Part shown: positions 20 through 5,692 of the stretch, one piece after another | Position numbering within the stretch: position 1 is the stretch's first letter | Layout of the letters: the number at the start of each line of letters is the position of its first letter | NCBI GenBank assembly: GCA_023250585.1 | Contig: JAHFAK010000126.1 | Location: 1 to 5,692, forward strand | Reading direction: 5' to 3' | Origin: Deltaproteobacteria bacterium | Lineage (GTDB): Bacteria; Bdellovibrionota_F; JAHFAK01 | Length of the DNA: 5,692 nucleotides | Position numbers and translations under genes: made by a program | The notes under the pieces: generated by a model | Database searches by the model: none | What the model was told of the DNA's origin: nothing | Seen by the model: the letters and a program-made list of their open reading frames with translations, nothing else

Positions 20-1039
20 ATGAAAGAGATTCTTAAAAAAATTCGAAAAAATCATTGTGCATTTGCAAGCCTCATCGTTATTGCACTTCTCTATTTTATT
101 GTACTTTTTGCCCCATTTCTTGCTCCATATAGTTATGACAATCAAGCACGAGAATATGGATTTTATCCTCCACAGCTTCTTAAAATTCATGTATTGACTG
201 AGCAGGGGACGCTCACTCGGCCTTTTATCTACGGCATACACGATACTTCCAAAAAATATCCATTGCATTTTTTTGAACGCGGAGATCCGTATCTTTTATT
301 TGGTTTTATTCCTACTTCAATTCATTTATTTTTAGTCGATGTTCCAGCTCGCCTTTATCTTTTTGGTTCTGATCAGTTTGGAAGAGATATTTTTTCTCGC
401 ATACTCTATGGATCACAGATCTCATTGACGGTTGGATTAGTGGGAATTTTTATTTCCATTATCTTAGCAATGATTATCGGAAGCATTTCAGGATTTTTTG
501 GCGGTAACATTGATTTTTTTACGATGCGTATCATTGAAATTATTATTGCAATTCCAAGTTTTTATTTATTGATTGCGCTTCGAGGTGTTTTCCCACTGAC
601 GCTTTCGTCAATTACGGTTTATTGTATCACCGTAATTGTTCTCTCATTTATTGGATGGACAAACATGGCACGCGTAATCCGAGGATTAGTACTCAGTATT
701 CGCACAAGAGACTACATTATTGCTGCACGTGTTTTGGGAATGAGCAATTGTGATATTATCATGAAACATATCTTACCCAATACCTATAGCTATATTATTG
801 TTGCTGCTACACTTTCTATTCCTTATTATATTTTAGGCGAAGTTTCGTTATCTTTTTTGGGCCTTGGGATTTCTGAGCCAGAACCTAGTTGGGGAAATAT
901 GTTAACAGTAGCGCAAAACATTCGATATCTTTCGAGCTATCCATGGATTCTTGCGCCGGGCTTTTTTATTTTTATTACCATACTTGCTTTCAACTTTTTA
1001 GGAGATGGCCTGCGAGATGCTTTGGATCCCCGAGAATAA
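20..1039 (+). CDS. ABC transporter permease, OppC/DppC type (peptide/nickel family)
   Basis: This is an inner-membrane permease subunit of a binding-protein-dependent importer, probably for oligopeptides. It would work with an OppB/DppB-type partner, ATPases and a periplasmic binding protein, none of which is fully inside the window. The 339-aa product has an N-terminal membrane segment (about 16-35, ending LFAPFLAPYS). The family signature follows (FGSDQFGRDIFSRILYG, 115-131), then several more hydrophobic helices. The cytoplasmic EAA loop that contacts the ATPase is at about 235-254 (AARVLGMSN...KHILPN). Further family marks are SFLGLGISEPEPSWGNML (278-295) and the C-terminus GDGLRDALDPRE. 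About 75 residues (38-112) separate the first helix from the GSDQFGRD motif, more than in short OppC proteins; some subfamilies carry such a periplasmic insert. The ATG at 20 has only a weak Shine-Dalgarno sequence, and the frame is open to the left edge, so a slightly earlier start is possible. An upstream gene probably overlaps this start: frame 1 ends in TAA at 34-36 with QYERDS, resembling a DppB/YejB tail, and frame 3 ends in TGA at 21-23. The substrate is not determinable. Confidence 0.93.
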   Translation: MKEILKKIRKNHCAFASLIVIALLYFIVLFAPFLAPYSYDNQAREYGFYPPQLLKIHVLTEQGTLTRPFIYGIHDTSKKYPLHFFERGDPYLLFGFIPTSIHLFLVDVPARLYLFGSDQFGRDIFSRILYGSQISLTVGLVGIFISIILAMIIGSISGFFGGNIDFFTMRIIEIIIAIPSFYLLIALRGVFPLTLSSITVYCITVIVLSFIGWTNMARVIRGLVLSIRTRDYIIAARVLGMSNCDIIMKHILPNTYSYIIVAATLSIPYYILGEVSLSFLGLGISEPEPSWGNMLTVAQNIRYLSSYPWILAPGFFIFITILAFNFLGDGLRDALDPRE

Positions 1040-1055
1040 GTAATCCCATAGGTTA

Positions 1056-1172
1056 TAAGGGAGTAGGTATGTTCTCAAAAAGTATTTCTATCGAGCGCGC
1101 TTCCATAATACTATTAAGAACAGGAAAGCGCGCTCGATAGAAATACTTTTTGAGAACATACCTACTCCCTTA
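1056..1172 (+). repeat. IR1: 117-bp palindromic element, perfect 47-bp arms, 23-nt loop
   Basis: The left arm 1056-1102 and the right arm 1126-1172 are reverse complements at all 47 positions, checked base by base. They flank a 23-nt loop (1103-1125). The inner 12 bp of each arm read TCGAGCGCGCTT and AAGCGCGCTCGA. The loop starts CCATAA and contains TATTAAGAAC. CC at the loop start and GG near its end could add two pairs with one bulged A. The element starts 16 nt after the stop of the permease gene and is homologous to IR2 (3960-4077). Here '+' gives the orientation of the asymmetric loop, with CCATAA first. Transcribed, it would form a very stable hairpin, but the bases after it (CTCCCGCATT) are not a T-run, so it is not a canonical intrinsic terminator. 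A palindromic mobile element or a 3'-UTR structure is possible; no function is assigned. Confidence 0.95.
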
Positions 1173-1207
1173 CTCCCGCATTAACTGAGCTGTTACGAGA
1201 ATAACAC

Positions 1208-1236
1208 TTTACATTTTTTTAACTAACTCCTAAAAC
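1208..1236 (+). promoter_or_regulatory. Candidate sigma-70-type promoter for tRNA-Arg
   Basis: TTTACA (1208-1213, five of six matches to TTGACA) is followed after exactly 17 nt by TAAAAC (1231-1236, four of six matches to TATAAT). Transcription would start near 1243, roughly 18 nt before the mature tRNA 5' end, a sensible leader length. The region is AT-rich, so chance matches are likely. It is supported mainly by position and spacing. Confidence 0.35.
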
Positions 1237-1260
1237 TTAACCCTTAAATCTTGATAAAGT

Positions 1261-1332
1261 GCCCTCATAGTTCAATGGATAAAACGCGGGATTCCTAATC
1301 CCGAACTACAGGTTCGATTCCTGTTGGGGGCA
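1261..1332 (+). tRNA. tRNA-Arg (anticodon CCT)
   Basis: A complete cloverleaf can be folded by eye. The acceptor stem GCCCTCA pairs with TGGGGGC (one T-G wobble) and the discriminator is A1332. The D arm is GTTC...AAAC with a C-A mismatch at its inner pair. The anticodon stem CGGGA/TCCCG encloses the seven-base loop TTCCTAA, putting CCT at the anticodon. The T arm is ACAGG, loop TTCGATT, then CCTGT. The variable loop is short. Anticodon CCU reads the AGG arginine codon. The 3' CCA is not encoded (AAG follows the discriminator), so it must be added by a CCA-adding enzyme. The gene stands alone, between IR1 and the convergent FKBP gene. Confidence 0.95.
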
Positions 1333-1350
1333 AAGAACAATCATAGGTGG

Positions 1351-1366
1351 AAAAAAATATTTTTTT
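1351..1366. other. A/T palindrome between convergent tRNA and FKBP gene
   Basis: Seven A, then TA, then seven T form a 16-bp perfect palindrome lying 18 nt after the tRNA and 7 nt past the FKBP stop codon. It gives a T-run in either direction and could help end transcription from both sides. It has no GC-rich stem, so it is not a convincing intrinsic terminator. Confidence 0.3.
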
Positions 1367-1373
1367 CAGTATT

Positions 1374-1811
1374 CTATTCTACATTGAGTAATTCTACGTC
1401 AAATATAAGCGTTGCATTTGGGGGAATAACTCCGCCGGCGCCACGTGCACCATAGCCTAGTTCTGGTGGAATCGTGAGTTTGCGTTTACCACCGACCTGC
1501 ATTGACATGACTCCTTCATCCCAACCTTTGATGACTTGGCCAACACCGATCGTGAATGAGAATGGCTCGCCACGAGTACGAGAACTATCGAAGGTTGTTC
1601 CATTCGTCAGTGTTCCTACATAATGAACGGTTACTTTCTTTCCAGGAGCCGGTGTTGCTCCTTTTCCGGTAACAAGATCGACATACTGTAATCCAGATTC
1701 AGTTTTCATAACAACTCCTTCTTGTTGGTGAGCAGTTTTTTTTTGATAGAAAAAATACGCAACACCAATAATTACTGTGATAAGTACAATAATAAACGGC
1801 ATTTTTTTCAT
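1374..1811 (-). CDS. Membrane-anchored FKBP-type peptidyl-prolyl cis-trans isomerase
   Basis: This enzyme catalyses cis-trans isomerisation of prolyl bonds to help protein folding, here probably on the outer face of the inner membrane. The 145-aa product begins with a single hydrophobic segment (about 5-22, after MKKM and before YQKK). This is best read as an uncleaved signal anchor; there is no lipobox cysteine. A short linker leads to one FKBP domain (about 37-145), opening TESGLQYVDLVTGKG. The usual binding-pocket residues are present: Y64 (HYVG), F74 and D75 (FDSS), F84 and F86, V93 and I94, W97 (IKGWDEG), Y120 (GYGARG), I129 (VIPPNA) and F137. The domain therefore looks catalytically competent. 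The length suits a minimal FKBP plus anchor, without the dimerisation domain of FkpA/Mip proteins. The ATG at 1811 has a good Shine-Dalgarno sequence (AGAAAGGA, 1825-1818, 6 nt upstream). The gene is divergent from the secreted-protein gene at 2009 and convergent with the tRNA. Client proteins are unknown. Confidence 0.95.
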   Translation of the reverse strand: MKKMPFIIVLITVIIGVAYFFYQKKTAHQQEGVVMKTESGLQYVDLVTGKGATPAPGKKVTVHYVGTLTNGTTFDSSRTRGEPFSFTIGVGQVIKGWDEGVMSMQVGGKRKLTIPPELGYGARGAGGVIPPNATLIFDVELLNVE

Positions 1812-1937
1812 ACATAATCCTTTCTATAATTTTTAAAAAGTATTCTTGCGTATTTTCATAATCACTGCAAGTACTAAACATTATTTATAATATATCAATA
1901 AAAATGCTAATAATTATAGCTAGTTAATTTATCCTGC

Positions 1938-1966
1938 TTGATTAATGTCCGCGTAGGAGCTATAGA
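1938..1966 (+). promoter_or_regulatory. Candidate sigma-70-type promoter for the gene at 2009
   Basis: TTGATT (1938-1943) and TATAGA (1961-1966) are separated by exactly 17 nt, each matching four of six consensus bases. Transcription would begin near 1973, giving a leader of about 35 nt before the ATG at 2009. That would put the alternative upstream ATG at 1970 at or before the start of the transcript, which supports the downstream start. The call rests on motif and spacing only. Confidence 0.4.
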
Positions 1967-1995
1967 ACAATGCAGTATTTATTAGTAAATAATAT

Positions 1996-2001
1996 GGAGG
2001 G
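1996..2001 (+). promoter_or_regulatory. Shine-Dalgarno site that decides the start at 2009
   Basis: GGAGGG lies 7 nt upstream of the ATG at 2009. The in-frame ATG at 1970 has no comparable site at proper distance. Starting at 2009 also puts the signal peptide (MKSRLFFLMV...) at the very N-terminus, so the longer form is unlikely. Confidence 0.85.
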
Positions 2002-2008
2002 TGCAATT

Positions 2009-3073
2009 ATGAAATCAAGACTATTCTTTTTAATGGTGAGTTTTATCTCCGTGGTATGTCTATCAAGCCTCGGTTATACTAAAGCTAAGGCAACAATTTC
2101 AGGTTGCAAGGTTACCATTAAGCAAGGTACATTAAACGGTACACGATCAATGATTATTAAATATAAAGAGGATAATGGCGACAATGAAGTGGATAAAGAA
2201 GCTTCAGAGGTTTTACAAGAATTCTTAGTGAGTAGTTTTATTCAAAAGAAGAATGCTGATGCACATGTCGTTGAACTTCTTGATTGGGAGTTAGAAGATA
2301 TTGAACATTTAAAGGATAAAAAGGTAAAAACTCCAGATGGGGAAGAATATCTTATTGATGGCATTAATTCATTACATAATAATGCAGCAGCTTTTCGTGC
2401 GACAGTTTTACTTTTAGTCAAATATCGTGGTCAAGAACAGGAGATCCGTATTACCAAAGAATTTATTACTCAGGTACCAAAAAATGGTAACCACGTACAA
2501 TTTGTATTTGAGTTTCAAGATGCATTAGCTACATATTTCTCTGTCTATAACATTGATGAGAGTTTCAAACGAGGAGATTATCTATACGATCCAGCATATA
2601 AACTTTTACAATCAGGTAATTATAAAAAAAATGTGAAAGCGGAGTTAGATGAACTCATGCAATTAAATAAAGACAGTTACGTCATTGAGTTAATACCCAA
2701 GGTAATAGGAGAAGAAATTGCAGTAACCGTACCTCAGCCCAATGGTATCATAAAAACTGAGTATTTTTCTCAAATTACCATAAAGATACCTGGATCAAGT
2801 GATTCCGTTTATGAAAAAAAGAATAAACTCAAAGATGTTATGGTATATACTCAAGATATTCAACCTGATGAAATAAAATTTCATGGTCTTTTGCTTAGAG
2901 TTCAGCAAAAAGGTACACCATGGAAGTTTTCTATCAAGAAAGATGAGCTATTCACAGAGCCTGAGACGATTATAGGTAATATAACTGGGGCAGAATTCGA
3001 TATTTTATATGCACGGTTGTTAGAACAAGAGATGCGGAAACTTGCCCGTACAGCAGCTGTCCCAAATTCCTAG
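2009..3073 (+). CDS. Predicted secreted protein of unknown function
   Basis: I do not recognise this 354-aa protein. It begins with a clear Sec signal peptide: MKSR, a hydrophobic core at about 5-22, then a likely signal-peptidase I site after AKA (residues 26-28). An ISGC sequence at 30-33 formally resembles a lipobox, but it lies about 11 residues beyond the hydrophobic core, so lipidation is less likely. The mature part is charged and soluble-looking. It alternates probable beta segments (ATVLLLVKYR 131-140, HVQFVFEFQ 162-170, EYFSQITIKI 251-260) with lysine/glutamate-rich helices, and ends in a helical stretch (about 328-347). No catalytic motif, repeat or further membrane segment is visible. 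It would act in the periplasm or outside the cell. The start is set by GGAGGG at 1996-2001 and a candidate promoter at 1938-1966. It is probably monocistronic: the next gene, rapZ, is convergent and only 3 nt away. Confidence 0.85.
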   Translation: MKSRLFFLMVSFISVVCLSSLGYTKAKATISGCKVTIKQGTLNGTRSMIIKYKEDNGDNEVDKEASEVLQEFLVSSFIQKKNADAHVVELLDWELEDIEHLKDKKVKTPDGEEYLIDGINSLHNNAAAFRATVLLLVKYRGQEQEIRITKEFITQVPKNGNHVQFVFEFQDALATYFSVYNIDESFKRGDYLYDPAYKLLQSGNYKKNVKAELDELMQLNKDSYVIELIPKVIGEEIAVTVPQPNGIIKTEYFSQITIKIPGSSDSVYEKKNKLKDVMVYTQDIQPDEIKFHGLLLRVQQKGTPWKFSIKKDELFTEPETIIGNITGAEFDILYARLLEQEMRKLARTAAVPNS

Positions 3074-3076
3074 TTC

Positions 3077-3934
3077 TTACTTCTTTCCTAAATCTCTATG
3101 CTCCGTTTTAACATAATAGTTCTTCTTGGTAAAATAATCTTTGAGATACTCAACGGTTACTACTGATCTATGCTTACCTCCGGTGCAGCCAATTGCAATC
3201 GAAAGATTTAATTTCCCTTCGGCTTCGTGTTTGGGAAGTGTATAATCTAAAAGTCGCATAAAATGATCGAGGAAAATTTTGGTTGTATCTTCTTCGAGGA
3301 CAAATTTTTTTACTTTGTGATCAAGGCCCGTATGATTTTTAAGGCTTTTAACAAAATAAGGATTTGGTAAAAATCTGACATCAAAGACAATATCGGCATC
3401 ATGAGGAGTTCCGTGTTTATAACCAAAAGAAATAAGATGGATATAGAGTAATTTATTTTTAGTTTTAAATTTATGATACGTAATATTCTTTACATCATGG
3501 ACGTTGAGCTTTGAGCTATCAATAGTAAGATTTGCATATCTTCTCACAGGTTCAAGAAGTTTTTTTTCTTTGTTAAGTGCTTTTTCAAGATTACCCTCAA
3601 AGAGGGGATGTCGACGTCTCGTTTCACTGTAACGATTCATGAGTACATCCTTTGATGCTTCGACAAAAATTACTTTTATGCTGTAATTACTTTTAAGCAT
3701 TTCTAGATGGCTCGTAAATTTTTTTGTAAAATCTTTTCCACGAACATCCATCCCTAATGCAATTTTTTTTATTTCTCTGTAGCTTGGTGATTTTATTCGT
3801 ATGAGATTTGTGATTAATTTAAGAGGAAAGTTATCAAAGCAGTGATACCCCAAATCTTCGAGTGCTTTCAAGACCGTTGTTTTTCCTGCACCTGATAGTC
3901 CTGTTACAATAATTATTTCTTTAAGATTTTTCAT
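3077..3934 (-). CDS. rapZ: RapZ family nucleotide-binding protein / RNase adapter
   Basis: RapZ is a cytoplasmic P-loop protein. In E. coli it binds the small RNAs GlmZ and GlmY through its C-terminal domain and directs RNase E cleavage of GlmZ, controlling glucosamine-6-phosphate synthesis; elsewhere its targets are less clear. From the ATG at 3934 the product is 285 aa, about the E. coli length (284). Visible family marks are a Walker A loop (GLSGAGKT, 12-19), LGYHCFDNFP (28-37), DVRG (63-66), a beta strand VIFVEA (88-93) and RYSETRRRHPL (101-111). The C-terminal half has ISFGYKHGTPHDADIVFDVR (168-187), FLPNP (188-192), TGLD (202-205) and GCTGGKHRSV (249-258). It ends in a basic tail (EHRDLGKK). 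A TTG at 3949 in frame could extend it by 5 residues but has no ribosome site; the ATG has a weak purine-rich one (AAGAG). It is on the same strand as the FHA/CpaF gene, with palindrome IR2 in the 151-nt gap, so the two may be cotranscribed. Conservation of the sRNA pathway here is inference. Confidence 0.95.
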   Translation of the reverse strand: MKNLKEIIIVTGLSGAGKTTVLKALEDLGYHCFDNFPLKLITNLIRIKSPSYREIKKIALGMDVRGKDFTKKFTSHLEMLKSNYSIKVIFVEASKDVLMNRYSETRRRHPLFEGNLEKALNKEKKLLEPVRRYANLTIDSSKLNVHDVKNITYHKFKTKNKLLYIHLISFGYKHGTPHDADIVFDVRFLPNPYFVKSLKNHTGLDHKVKKFVLEEDTTKIFLDHFMRLLDYTLPKHEAEGKLNLSIAIGCTGGKHRSVVTVEYLKDYFTKKNYYVKTEHRDLGKK

Positions 3935-3959
3935 GTTTCTCTTTCTCAACAGTGTGGTT

Positions 3960-4077
3960 AGGTAGGAGATATATGTGTTCTTTTTTATTTTCTGTCGAGC
4001 GCGCTTACCCCGTTCTTAATAATTTTATGGAAGCGACGTCGACAGAAAATAAAAAAGAACACATATATCTCCTACCT
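3960..4077 (-). repeat. IR2: 118-bp palindromic element, 47-nt arms with 3 mismatches, 24-nt loop
   Basis: Arms 3960-4006 and 4031-4077 are reverse complements at 44 of 47 positions around a 24-nt loop (4007-4030). The outer 35 bp are perfect. The three mismatches are clustered in the inner core, where one arm has TCGAGCGCGCTT and the other, read as its complement, TCGACGTCGCTT. Read on the minus strand, the loop begins CCATAA and contains TATTAAGAAC, like IR1, which sets the orientation. It begins 8 nt beyond the stop codon of the FHA/CpaF gene and ends 25 nt before the rapZ ATG. On the minus-strand transcript it would form a long hairpin in the 3' end of one message and the leader of the next. 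The downstream bases (AACCACACTG) lack a T-run, so it is not a typical terminator. Confidence 0.95.
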
Positions 4078-4085
4078 CAATTCAT

Positions 4086-5692
4086 TTACGTTTTTCCAAA
4101 TAAACTTAAATCAATTTTAATGCCTTTCCGTTTTAAATTTTCATAAAAGGTTGGCACAATGCCTGTCGGTTTTAATTCACAAGAAATTGAGCCATCTTCA
4201 TGAATATGTATATCTTGCAAATGAAATATATCACTTGTAGAAATTATGTCTTGTTCTAATCCTGTGATTTCAGTGATTTTAACAATTCGTCGTTTGCCAT
4301 CTGCAAATCGTTCAAGATGAATAATCAGTGTAAGAGCGCTGGAAATTTGGTGTCGTATTGCTTTAATTGGAATATCAATACCATTTATGACAACCATTGT
4401 TTCAAGTCGAGAAAATACATCACGGGGTGAGTTTGAATGAATGGTAGTGATTGATCCCTCATGTCCGGTGTTCATTGCTTGAAGCATATCGAGTGCTTCA
4501 GGCCCTCTACACTCGCCAATAATGATTCGATCTGGTCTCATACGCAGAGCATTTATAACCAGCTGTTGTAGTGTAATTTTCTGGTTTTTATCATCAAAAG
4601 ATTTTTTTGCTTCAAGACGAACTACATGTGGCTGACCCAGTTTTAATTCCGCAGTATCTTCAATCGTAATGATACGTTCATTTGGTGAAATAAAAGATGA
4701 GAGAAAATTAAGAAGGGTTGTTTTTCCTGAACTTGTTCCACCAGAAATAAGTATGCTTATTTTATTCTGAACACATGTTTTTAAAAAACGTGCAGCTGAT
4801 TTAGTGAGCGTTTCAGTTTCAACCAACGATTCTTCAGAAAAAGGCAGTGGCATAAATTTTCGAATTGTTACATTTGGTCCATCAATAGCTACAGGATTCA
4901 TAACGACATTCATACGTGAACCATCGTTAAGTCGTGCATCGATAAGAAACATATCTTTTGAGCGTGTAGTGCCTGATTGAGCAAGAAGTCTATCAATTGC
5001 CAAAGTTAAAGAACTCAGACCTGCAAATCGTTTATTCGTTTTTATGAGTTTTCCCTGTTTCTCAATATAGAGAGCATTAAGTCCGTTAATAATGATTTCT
5101 GAAATATCATTGTCAGAAAGAAAATGAGTAATTGGACCATAGGCAAGATATTCATTCTGCATATCTTGTAGAAATTCGGTATTGTGAATATTTTCTTTTG
5201 CTAATTCTTCTTGTATCAGGTGGGTAAAATCTTTAGCCGTTAGTTTATAAAGAGACACATTTTTATCTTTTATACTTTTTTGAATTTTTCGATACAGTTT
5301 TTCATACTCAGAAAAACTATAGGAATCTTTTTCAAGTGGCTCAATAAAAGATACGTCTTCTTTTAAATGTTCAATCCTCTCGCCAATGGGATCTGATTTA
5401 AATTTTCTTCCGGTAATTTCTTCATCGCGAGGATATGAAAAAAATATTTCCGTTGAACCTATAATCAATTTTTCATTACTTTTTAAAGATATCTCCTGAT
5501 TTAAAACAGTATTTTTATACAAAATTTTTCCTGAATTCTTGAGATCTTTTACCTTAAAAGAAAATTCAGGAGCGATCATAATTCGTAATTGAATACCTTC
5601 TAAATCTTTACCTTCGCAACGGATATGATTTTTGAAATCTCCTCCGATTGTAGTAACTTCCTTGTGAACTTTTATAGATTCAAGAGAACCAT
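4086..5692 (-). CDS. FHA-domain CpaF/TadA-type secretion ATPase (5' end outside window)
   Basis: This hexameric-type ATPase of the CpaF/VirB11 family would power a Tad/Flp pilus or related type II/IV secretion machine at the cytoplasmic face of the inner membrane. The frame is open to the right edge, giving at least 535 codons. An internal ATG at 5579 begins a 497-residue stretch, used for numbering here, but the N-terminal domain clearly starts before it. That domain (from the window edge to about residue 50) has an FHA-like pattern: VTTIGGDFKNHI, then FKVKDLKNSGKILYKN, then EKLIIGSTEIFFSY. A linker follows (50-110), then an N-terminal ATPase subdomain (YLAYGPITHFLSDNDISEII, 145-164; LNDGSRMNVV, 217-226). 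The motor core has Walker A GGTSSGKT (280-287), Asp box IEDTAEL (306-312), Walker B RIIIGE (351-356) with E356, and the His-box region TGHEGSITTIHSN (371-383). All nucleotide-handling motifs are intact. No other pilus genes are in view, so the machine is not identified. The gene ends 8 nt before IR2. Confidence 0.93.
   Translation of the reverse strand, partial: GSLESIKVHKEVTTIGGDFKNHIRCEGKDLEGIQLRIMIAPEFSFKVKDLKNSGKILYKNTVLNQEISLKSNEKLIIGSTEIFFSYPRDEEITGRKFKSDPIGERIEHLKEDVSFIEPLEKDSYSFSEYEKLYRKIQKSIKDKNVSLYKLTAKDFTHLIQEELAKENIHNTEFLQDMQNEYLAYGPITHFLSDNDISEIIINGLNALYIEKQGKLIKTNKRFAGLSSLTLAIDRLLAQSGTTRSKDMFLIDARLNDGSRMNVVMNPVAIDGPNVTIRKFMPLPFSEESLVETETLTKSAARFLKTCVQNKISILISGGTSSGKTTLLNFLSSFISPNERIITIEDTAELKLGQPHVVRLEAKKSFDDKNQKITLQQLVINALRMRPDRIIIGECRGPEALDMLQAMNTGHEGSITTIHSNSPRDVFSRLETMVVINGIDIPIKAIRHQISSALTLIIHLERFADGKRRIVKITEITGLEQDIISTSDIFHLQDIHIHEDGSISCELKPTGIVPTFYENLKRKGIKIDLSLFGKT

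Follow-up and report, generated by a model that had tools for sequence, protein, structure and literature searches.

The window (the whole stretch of DNA that was analysed, 5,692 nucleotides in length) contains two long hairpins, IR1 and IR2, the first between genes for a transporter permease and a tRNA and the second between genes for a RapZ-like protein and an ATPase. The features are listed by position, strand and content; target-site duplications and terminal repeats are given without a strand.

20..1039, plus strand: OppC-like ABC transporter permease (PF00528, PF12911), upstream of IR1
1032..1039: left target-site duplication (TSD) GAGAATAA, in which the OppC-like gene upstream has its stop codon (from direct reading and the family-wide 8-bp TSD signal)
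1040..1055: left terminal repeat (TIR) of the IR1 MITE, GTAATCCCATAGGTTA, partly diverged when compared with the family TIR GTAATSNCTCAGTTA
1056..1102, plus strand: IR1 5' arm, 47 nt, 100% complementary to 1126-1172
1103..1125, plus strand: IR1 loop CCATAATACTATTAAGAACAGGA, 23 nt, the most frequent loop of the family (21 copies)
1126..1172, plus strand: IR1 3' arm, 47 nt, with the family core mismatch healed (GCGCGC on both sides)
1173..1180, plus strand: asymmetric spacer CTCCCGCA (family form ATGGGGGAG, other-strand reading)
1181..1196: right terminal repeat of the IR1 MITE, TTAACTGAGCTGTTAC
1197..1204: right target-site duplication GAGAATAA (direct reading)
1261..1332, plus strand: tRNA gene (RF00005, 64 bits), downstream of IR1
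3077..3949, minus strand: RapZ-like protein (PF03668, PF22740), downstream of IR2 in the minus direction
3960..4006, minus strand: IR2 3' arm, with a mismatch triple at 3999-4001 (IR2 reads on the minus strand)
4007..4030, minus strand: IR2 loop CCATAAAATTATTAAGAACGGGGT (minus-strand reading), 24 nt
4031..4077, minus strand: IR2 5' arm, with a mismatch triple at 4036-4038; no TIR and no TSD outside it (bare class)
4086..5579, minus strand: T2SSE/CpaF-like ATPase (PF00437), upstream of IR2 in the minus direction

At 1970-3073 the window also holds an ORF of 367 aa that starts like a signal peptide and matches no Pfam family. In a scan of the window against Rfam 15, the tRNA was the sole match and no RNA family was found at either hairpin. 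An earlier note on this DNA recognised no named family for them, and none fits.

Re-derivation of the coordinates, arms and loops returned the hairpins as that note had described them. The arms of IR1 pair at 47/47 positions and those of IR2 at 44/47; the unpaired triple in IR2 (GCG at 3999-4001 against ACG at 4036-4038) lies five pairs below the loop and is the mismatch conserved in the hairpin family, to which IR1, in which it has been healed, is an exception. Folded as RNA, IR1 reaches -85.2 kcal/mol (z = -20.7 against shuffles) and IR2 -71.5 kcal/mol (z = -17.4), and neither fold is due to chance. Of the outer 35 stem positions, 14 are the same in the two hairpins whichever arm is compared; each hairpin has Watson-Crick pairs at all 35, and the inner 3' arm is identical at 12/12 positions. 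These figures reproduce exactly the counts of the earlier note, and we likewise conclude that IR1 and IR2 are homologous and that their stems diverged pair by pair from one ancestor. The accompanying tally of up to 21 coordinated pair changes holds as an ungapped count, but not as one of substitutions only, since a mirrored 1-nt indel between the two subfamilies is mixed in.

IR1 and IR2 are members of a family of about 80 copies, which are intergenic and scattered through the host genome (2.24 Mb in 164 contigs, 96.7% complete), the counts being based on genome searches and fetched stretches. In DNA searches of their own genome, IR1 matched dozens of copies, most of them 82-92% identical, and IR2 retrieved a second set. 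At three or fewer mismatches the core pattern CGCTTCCATAANANTNTTAAGAACNG has 76 matches in the host genome, of which 61 are exact, whereas the reversed control has none. Additional copies, at C24, C25 and C44, were picked up by a covariance model, whose scores show little tail below about 87 bits. Further copies are thus present and their outer stems are nearly all self-complementary, which is the opposite of the two outcomes that the earlier note had named as speaking against its proposal.

Elsewhere, no trace of the family was found: the covariance model returned no copy from the only other genome of the phylum (whose sampling amounts to two genomes), and the exact core had 7 matches in 84,980 species, none of them within a hairpin and at chance level. 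The core pattern occurred in 2 of 58 other genomes, again by chance and outside any hairpin; the viral sequences searched gave no match, and a search for relatives with RapZ as the query found none. Within the host, the four copies L003, L025, L056 and L094, whose arms are mismatched or shifted and which may be recombinants or assembly chimeras, were excluded from most counts. Two of these, L025 and L056, have mismatched arms and similar upstream flanks with the hairpin oppositely oriented, a pattern that may reflect recombination, inversion or an assembly chimera.

The hairpin has a constant tip and a variable stem. In every copy the tip, i.e., the loop together with 11 bp that include a conserved three-pair mismatch, is nearly constant; the loop (CCATAANANTNTTAAGAACRG..) is mostly 22-24 nt long (range 21-24 nt). 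From the loop outward there follow a 5-bp inner stem, the three-pair mismatch (CGT facing CGC, with CGA in a variant; unpaired in about 90-97% of copies), and about 37 bp of stem. Pairing remains at 0.9-1.0 out to position 45-46 and falls to background beyond; arms measure 45-48 bp, tightly so in copies of both the MITE and the bare classes. Among bare copies, mean pairwise identity is 0.96 and 0.90 in the core arms, 0.92 in the loop, 0.72 in the inner stem, 0.43 in the outer stem and 0.31 in the flank. Although identity at the stem base is 43% in the bare class, more than 97% of the outer stem is Watson-Crick paired: the outer stem is nearly free in sequence and fixed in length and pairing. 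The outer arms of the two classes share a diffuse ancestral pattern, a purine-rich base followed by TATGTTCT.

About half of the copies are MITE-borne, like IR1, and about half are bare, like IR2. IR1 sits inside a 157-bp MITE (1040-1196) with TIRs of 15-16 bp and an 8-bp target duplication, GAGAATAA, and ends of the GTAATSNCTCAGTTA type were found in 39/73 copies (score of 11 or higher on one side). For the MITE class, the longest direct repeat at the ends averages 6.81, where the null gives 2.84 (sd 0.22), the duplication being 8 bp; for the bare class the corresponding value is 3.48 against 3.54, such that there is no target duplication, and any TIR residue does not exceed that in shuffles. 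Nor does local GC skew around bare copies (positive in 15/34) indicate a replication-strand bias. At L124:415-570, L126:2400-2553 and L131:9323-9429, the same TIRs and 8-bp duplications enclose an unrelated hairpin, GGATCCCGTGGTCAAGCCACGGGATGACAA..., which resembles CGTC/RPE-type REPs; the MITE backbone therefore carries more than one hairpin. Half-MITEs, in which a single terminal repeat remains together with no more than the outer part of an arm, occur at L125:3028, L127:2517, L128:2584 and 6922, L129:2563 and L130:2615, as expected of deletions inside a palindrome.

Because their ends combine TIRs with 8-bp target duplications, copies of the MITE class would have been moved by a transposase of the cut-and-paste type acting in trans. 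A TIR search of the genome gave 28 matches, none shown to enclose a transposase, and PF03050 (IS66) had no match. TIR pairs 2.1 kb apart at L129 were considered as an autonomous element and rejected: the genes that they enclose are ribosomal-protein and other genes, with no transposase. Bare copies may be old insertions with decayed ends, or hairpins that spread by another route.

The closest known kinds are MITEs and, by analogy, REPINs. Like other bacterial MITEs (PMC10969869), elements of the IR1 class are short, non-coding, multi-copy and extragenic, with imperfect TIRs and 8-bp target duplications; they differ in holding an internal hairpin with 47-bp arms, a constant tip and a freely varying but paired stem, and the bare class differs in having neither TIR nor TSD. 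IR1 has the tested features of a MITE (TIRs in many copies and a TSD of fixed length), and an autonomous partner was not found in the genome. The resemblance to Rickettsia palindromic elements (PMC10969869, PMC3733652), to which the hairpins had been likened, extends to size (about 120-150 bp), palindromic form and dispersal, but not to membership: those elements encode an ORF and nearly half of the first-reported ones lie in frame within genes (PMC10969869, PMC3733652), whereas the copies described here are intergenic and, since their loops vary by 1-2 nt within the 21-24 nt range, have no common frame.

An improbable, though the best surviving, alternative to the history outlined above is that the bare hairpins are REPIN-like, moved as single-stranded DNA by a RAYT (a Y1 transposase), and that the MITE class arose by later capture of that hairpin. 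REPINs are dispersed extragenic hairpins of ~100 bp and constant length, in which compensatory changes are frequent (PMC3116915, PMC8266576, PMC3733652) and fall in a length-constrained spacer (PMC3116915), and the absence of a TSD from the bare class agrees with such a route. The host, moreover, encodes four Y1-domain proteins (L132:1459-1896, L133:1210-1863, L134 and L135), of which that at L132 (145 aa) has the size of an IS200 TnpA and that at L133 (217 aa) is RAYT-like by eye. However, none of the four genes has a core copy beside it, the hairpins lack GTAG and CGTC tags and have no conserved ends of another kind (flanks are 31% identical), and their conserved part is the tip, the opposite of the arrangement in REPINs, where it is the ends. 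By virtue of the constant tip, the lack of tags and the lack of an adjoining RAYT gene, the bare class is not filed with REPINs, although these are what it works most like.

How the stems stay matched can be read from the differences among copies, the direction and timing of which were inferred from paralogues. An alignment of 28 copies contains 286 two-sided and 7 one-sided changes; 98% of the cells are paired, and 0/500 shuffles attained covariation as high. Because the copies share ancestry and paired changes may be partly shared by descent, neither these counts of changes nor those that follow are counts of independent events. Between nearest copies, 141/152 stem differences are two-sided and 11 one-sided (about 13 to 1), and where two copies differ at one stem position only, the difference is two-sided in 6/7 cases. 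Nearly half of the two-sided changes (67/139) are of the transversion type, for which there is no path through G-T or A-C. Non-Watson-Crick pairs account for 35/2303 outer pairs, among them 8 G-T and 10 A-C, such that neither RNA strand is favoured. The TSDs of MITE copies provide a clock for the stems: 19/248 TSD positions are mismatched, against 22/1044 stem pairs of the same copies (Fisher p = 5e-5), 13 of those 22 stem mismatches coming from one indel in L029.

Events larger than a single pair follow the same rule. Single-base indels are mirrored on both arms in L022 and L023, and subfamilies are set apart by a mirrored 1-nt gap. The core mismatch has been healed in both directions: in L021-, L023 and L038 both arms now carry the 5' version, GACGTC, and in IR1 both carry the 3' version, GCGCGC. 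Asymmetries between the arms are erased, and L015, L028 and L095 contain flanking sequence that was copied from one side of the hairpin to the other. Given the excess of two-sided changes, those that bypass wobble pairs, G-T not exceeding A-C, the mirrored indels and the two-way healing, the stem data fit arm-to-arm copying better than base-by-base selection on RNA. We assign a probability of about 0.7 to the reading in which both hairpins are copies of a single palindromic repeat, dispersed and mobile but non-autonomous, whose stems are kept perfect mainly by arm-to-arm copying of DNA. The earlier note had left the choice between a selected fold and such copying open, and the family-wide data favour copying.

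Under this reading, one arm would be copied onto the other as DNA, either by template switching during replication or by mismatch repair in an extruded hairpin, and one event would turn a change in one arm into a paired change. What is observed is the signature of copying; the identity of the enzyme behind it is inferred. Mismatch repair in an extruded hairpin would leave the same trace as template switching, and the host has MutS. The SbcCD nuclease normally cuts such hairpins. SbcC was not found in the 96.7% complete host genome, although the same search detected it in 14/14 control genomes, and for SbcD the best score in the host was 30.8 bits against a cut-off of 77.65; with no recognisable SbcCD, long palindromes can persist. 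Template switching is a known means by which hairpin arms become homogenised (PMC8794818, PMC8604942, PMC7202029), quasipalindrome mutations in E. coli being one instance (PMC7202029). It is a process rather than an element, and the likeness lies in multi-base paired changes made in one step and in homogenised arms; in those studies the evidence for long-term maintenance of stems is called circumstantial (PMC8794818; PMC8604942; PMC7202029), whereas here the pattern is seen over about 70 paralogous 45-bp stems.

It is unlikely, and a shade more so than a REPIN-like origin, that the hairpin is instead an RNA structure (a processing signal, a stabiliser or a small RNA) whose pairing is kept by selection and ordinary compensatory mutation. 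The very strong folds and covariation, the constancy of the loop, and the location of many bare copies between co-directional genes, no further than about 25 nt from a stop codon, would all suit an RNA role. But bare copies are oriented at random with respect to genes (10 same, 9 opposite), the hairpins have no Rfam match, and G-T being no commoner than A-C and the proportion of transversion-type changes also count against it. A promoter function was likewise unsupported.

Very little probability attaches to the proposal that the outer arms are built anew from target DNA at each insertion, giving unrelated perfect stems of fixed length. Arms held at 45-48 bp, the nearly unrelated outermost sequences of bare copies, and the unique outer arms of the copy at C24 are what it would predict; yet the inner arms are homologous, and the outer arms retain the ancestral pattern that they have in common with the MITE class. 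Least likely of all, the hairpins would be bidirectional transcription terminators, as their strength, their intergenic location and their adjoining stop codons could suggest, but divergent gaps, which need no terminator, are over-represented (bare 9/30 and MITE 13/35, against 7/59 in a small background), convergent gaps are not enriched over that same small background, and no terminator-like site with a T tail occurs at IR1 or IR2. Random orientation to genes, together with divergent gaps not being avoided, makes both a strand-specific RNA role and a terminator role less likely.

Arm-to-arm copying alone falls short of explaining the tip: the core mismatch survives in most copies even though healing occurs, so that selection, or a bias against multi-base mismatches, must be added. 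The tight 45-48 bp arms also count against copying in its simple form, which predicts no ruler, and their fixed length suggests a constraint beyond copying. Because the core mismatch persists though it can be healed, and because conservation in bare copies is far higher in the tip than in the stem, the tip (the loop and the 11-bp inner stem with its three-pair mismatch) is probably the part that is recognised by a protein, whether for mobility or for a role in the host. A fuller version of this idea, which we offer tentatively and consider possible rather than probable, is that the tip structure serves as a recognition signal, with about 35 bp of stem free in sequence and held in length and pairing by continual arm-to-arm copying of DNA, and that, at about 35 bare sites subject to long-term purifying selection, a host or mobilising protein reads shape and tip rather than the sequence of the stem.

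Paired changes in a stem are routinely taken as proof of a selected RNA, and the present family indicates that matched stem changes need not signal a selected RNA fold. Its extreme covariation, across about 70 paralogous 45-bp stems, resembles a product of DNA copying, and the family is for that reason a natural control for covariation tests, as well as a place in which the maintenance of hairpins by template switching can be measured. It constitutes a new repeat family, half of it MITE-borne, whose host genome has no recognisable SbcCD and belongs to a barely sampled phylum.
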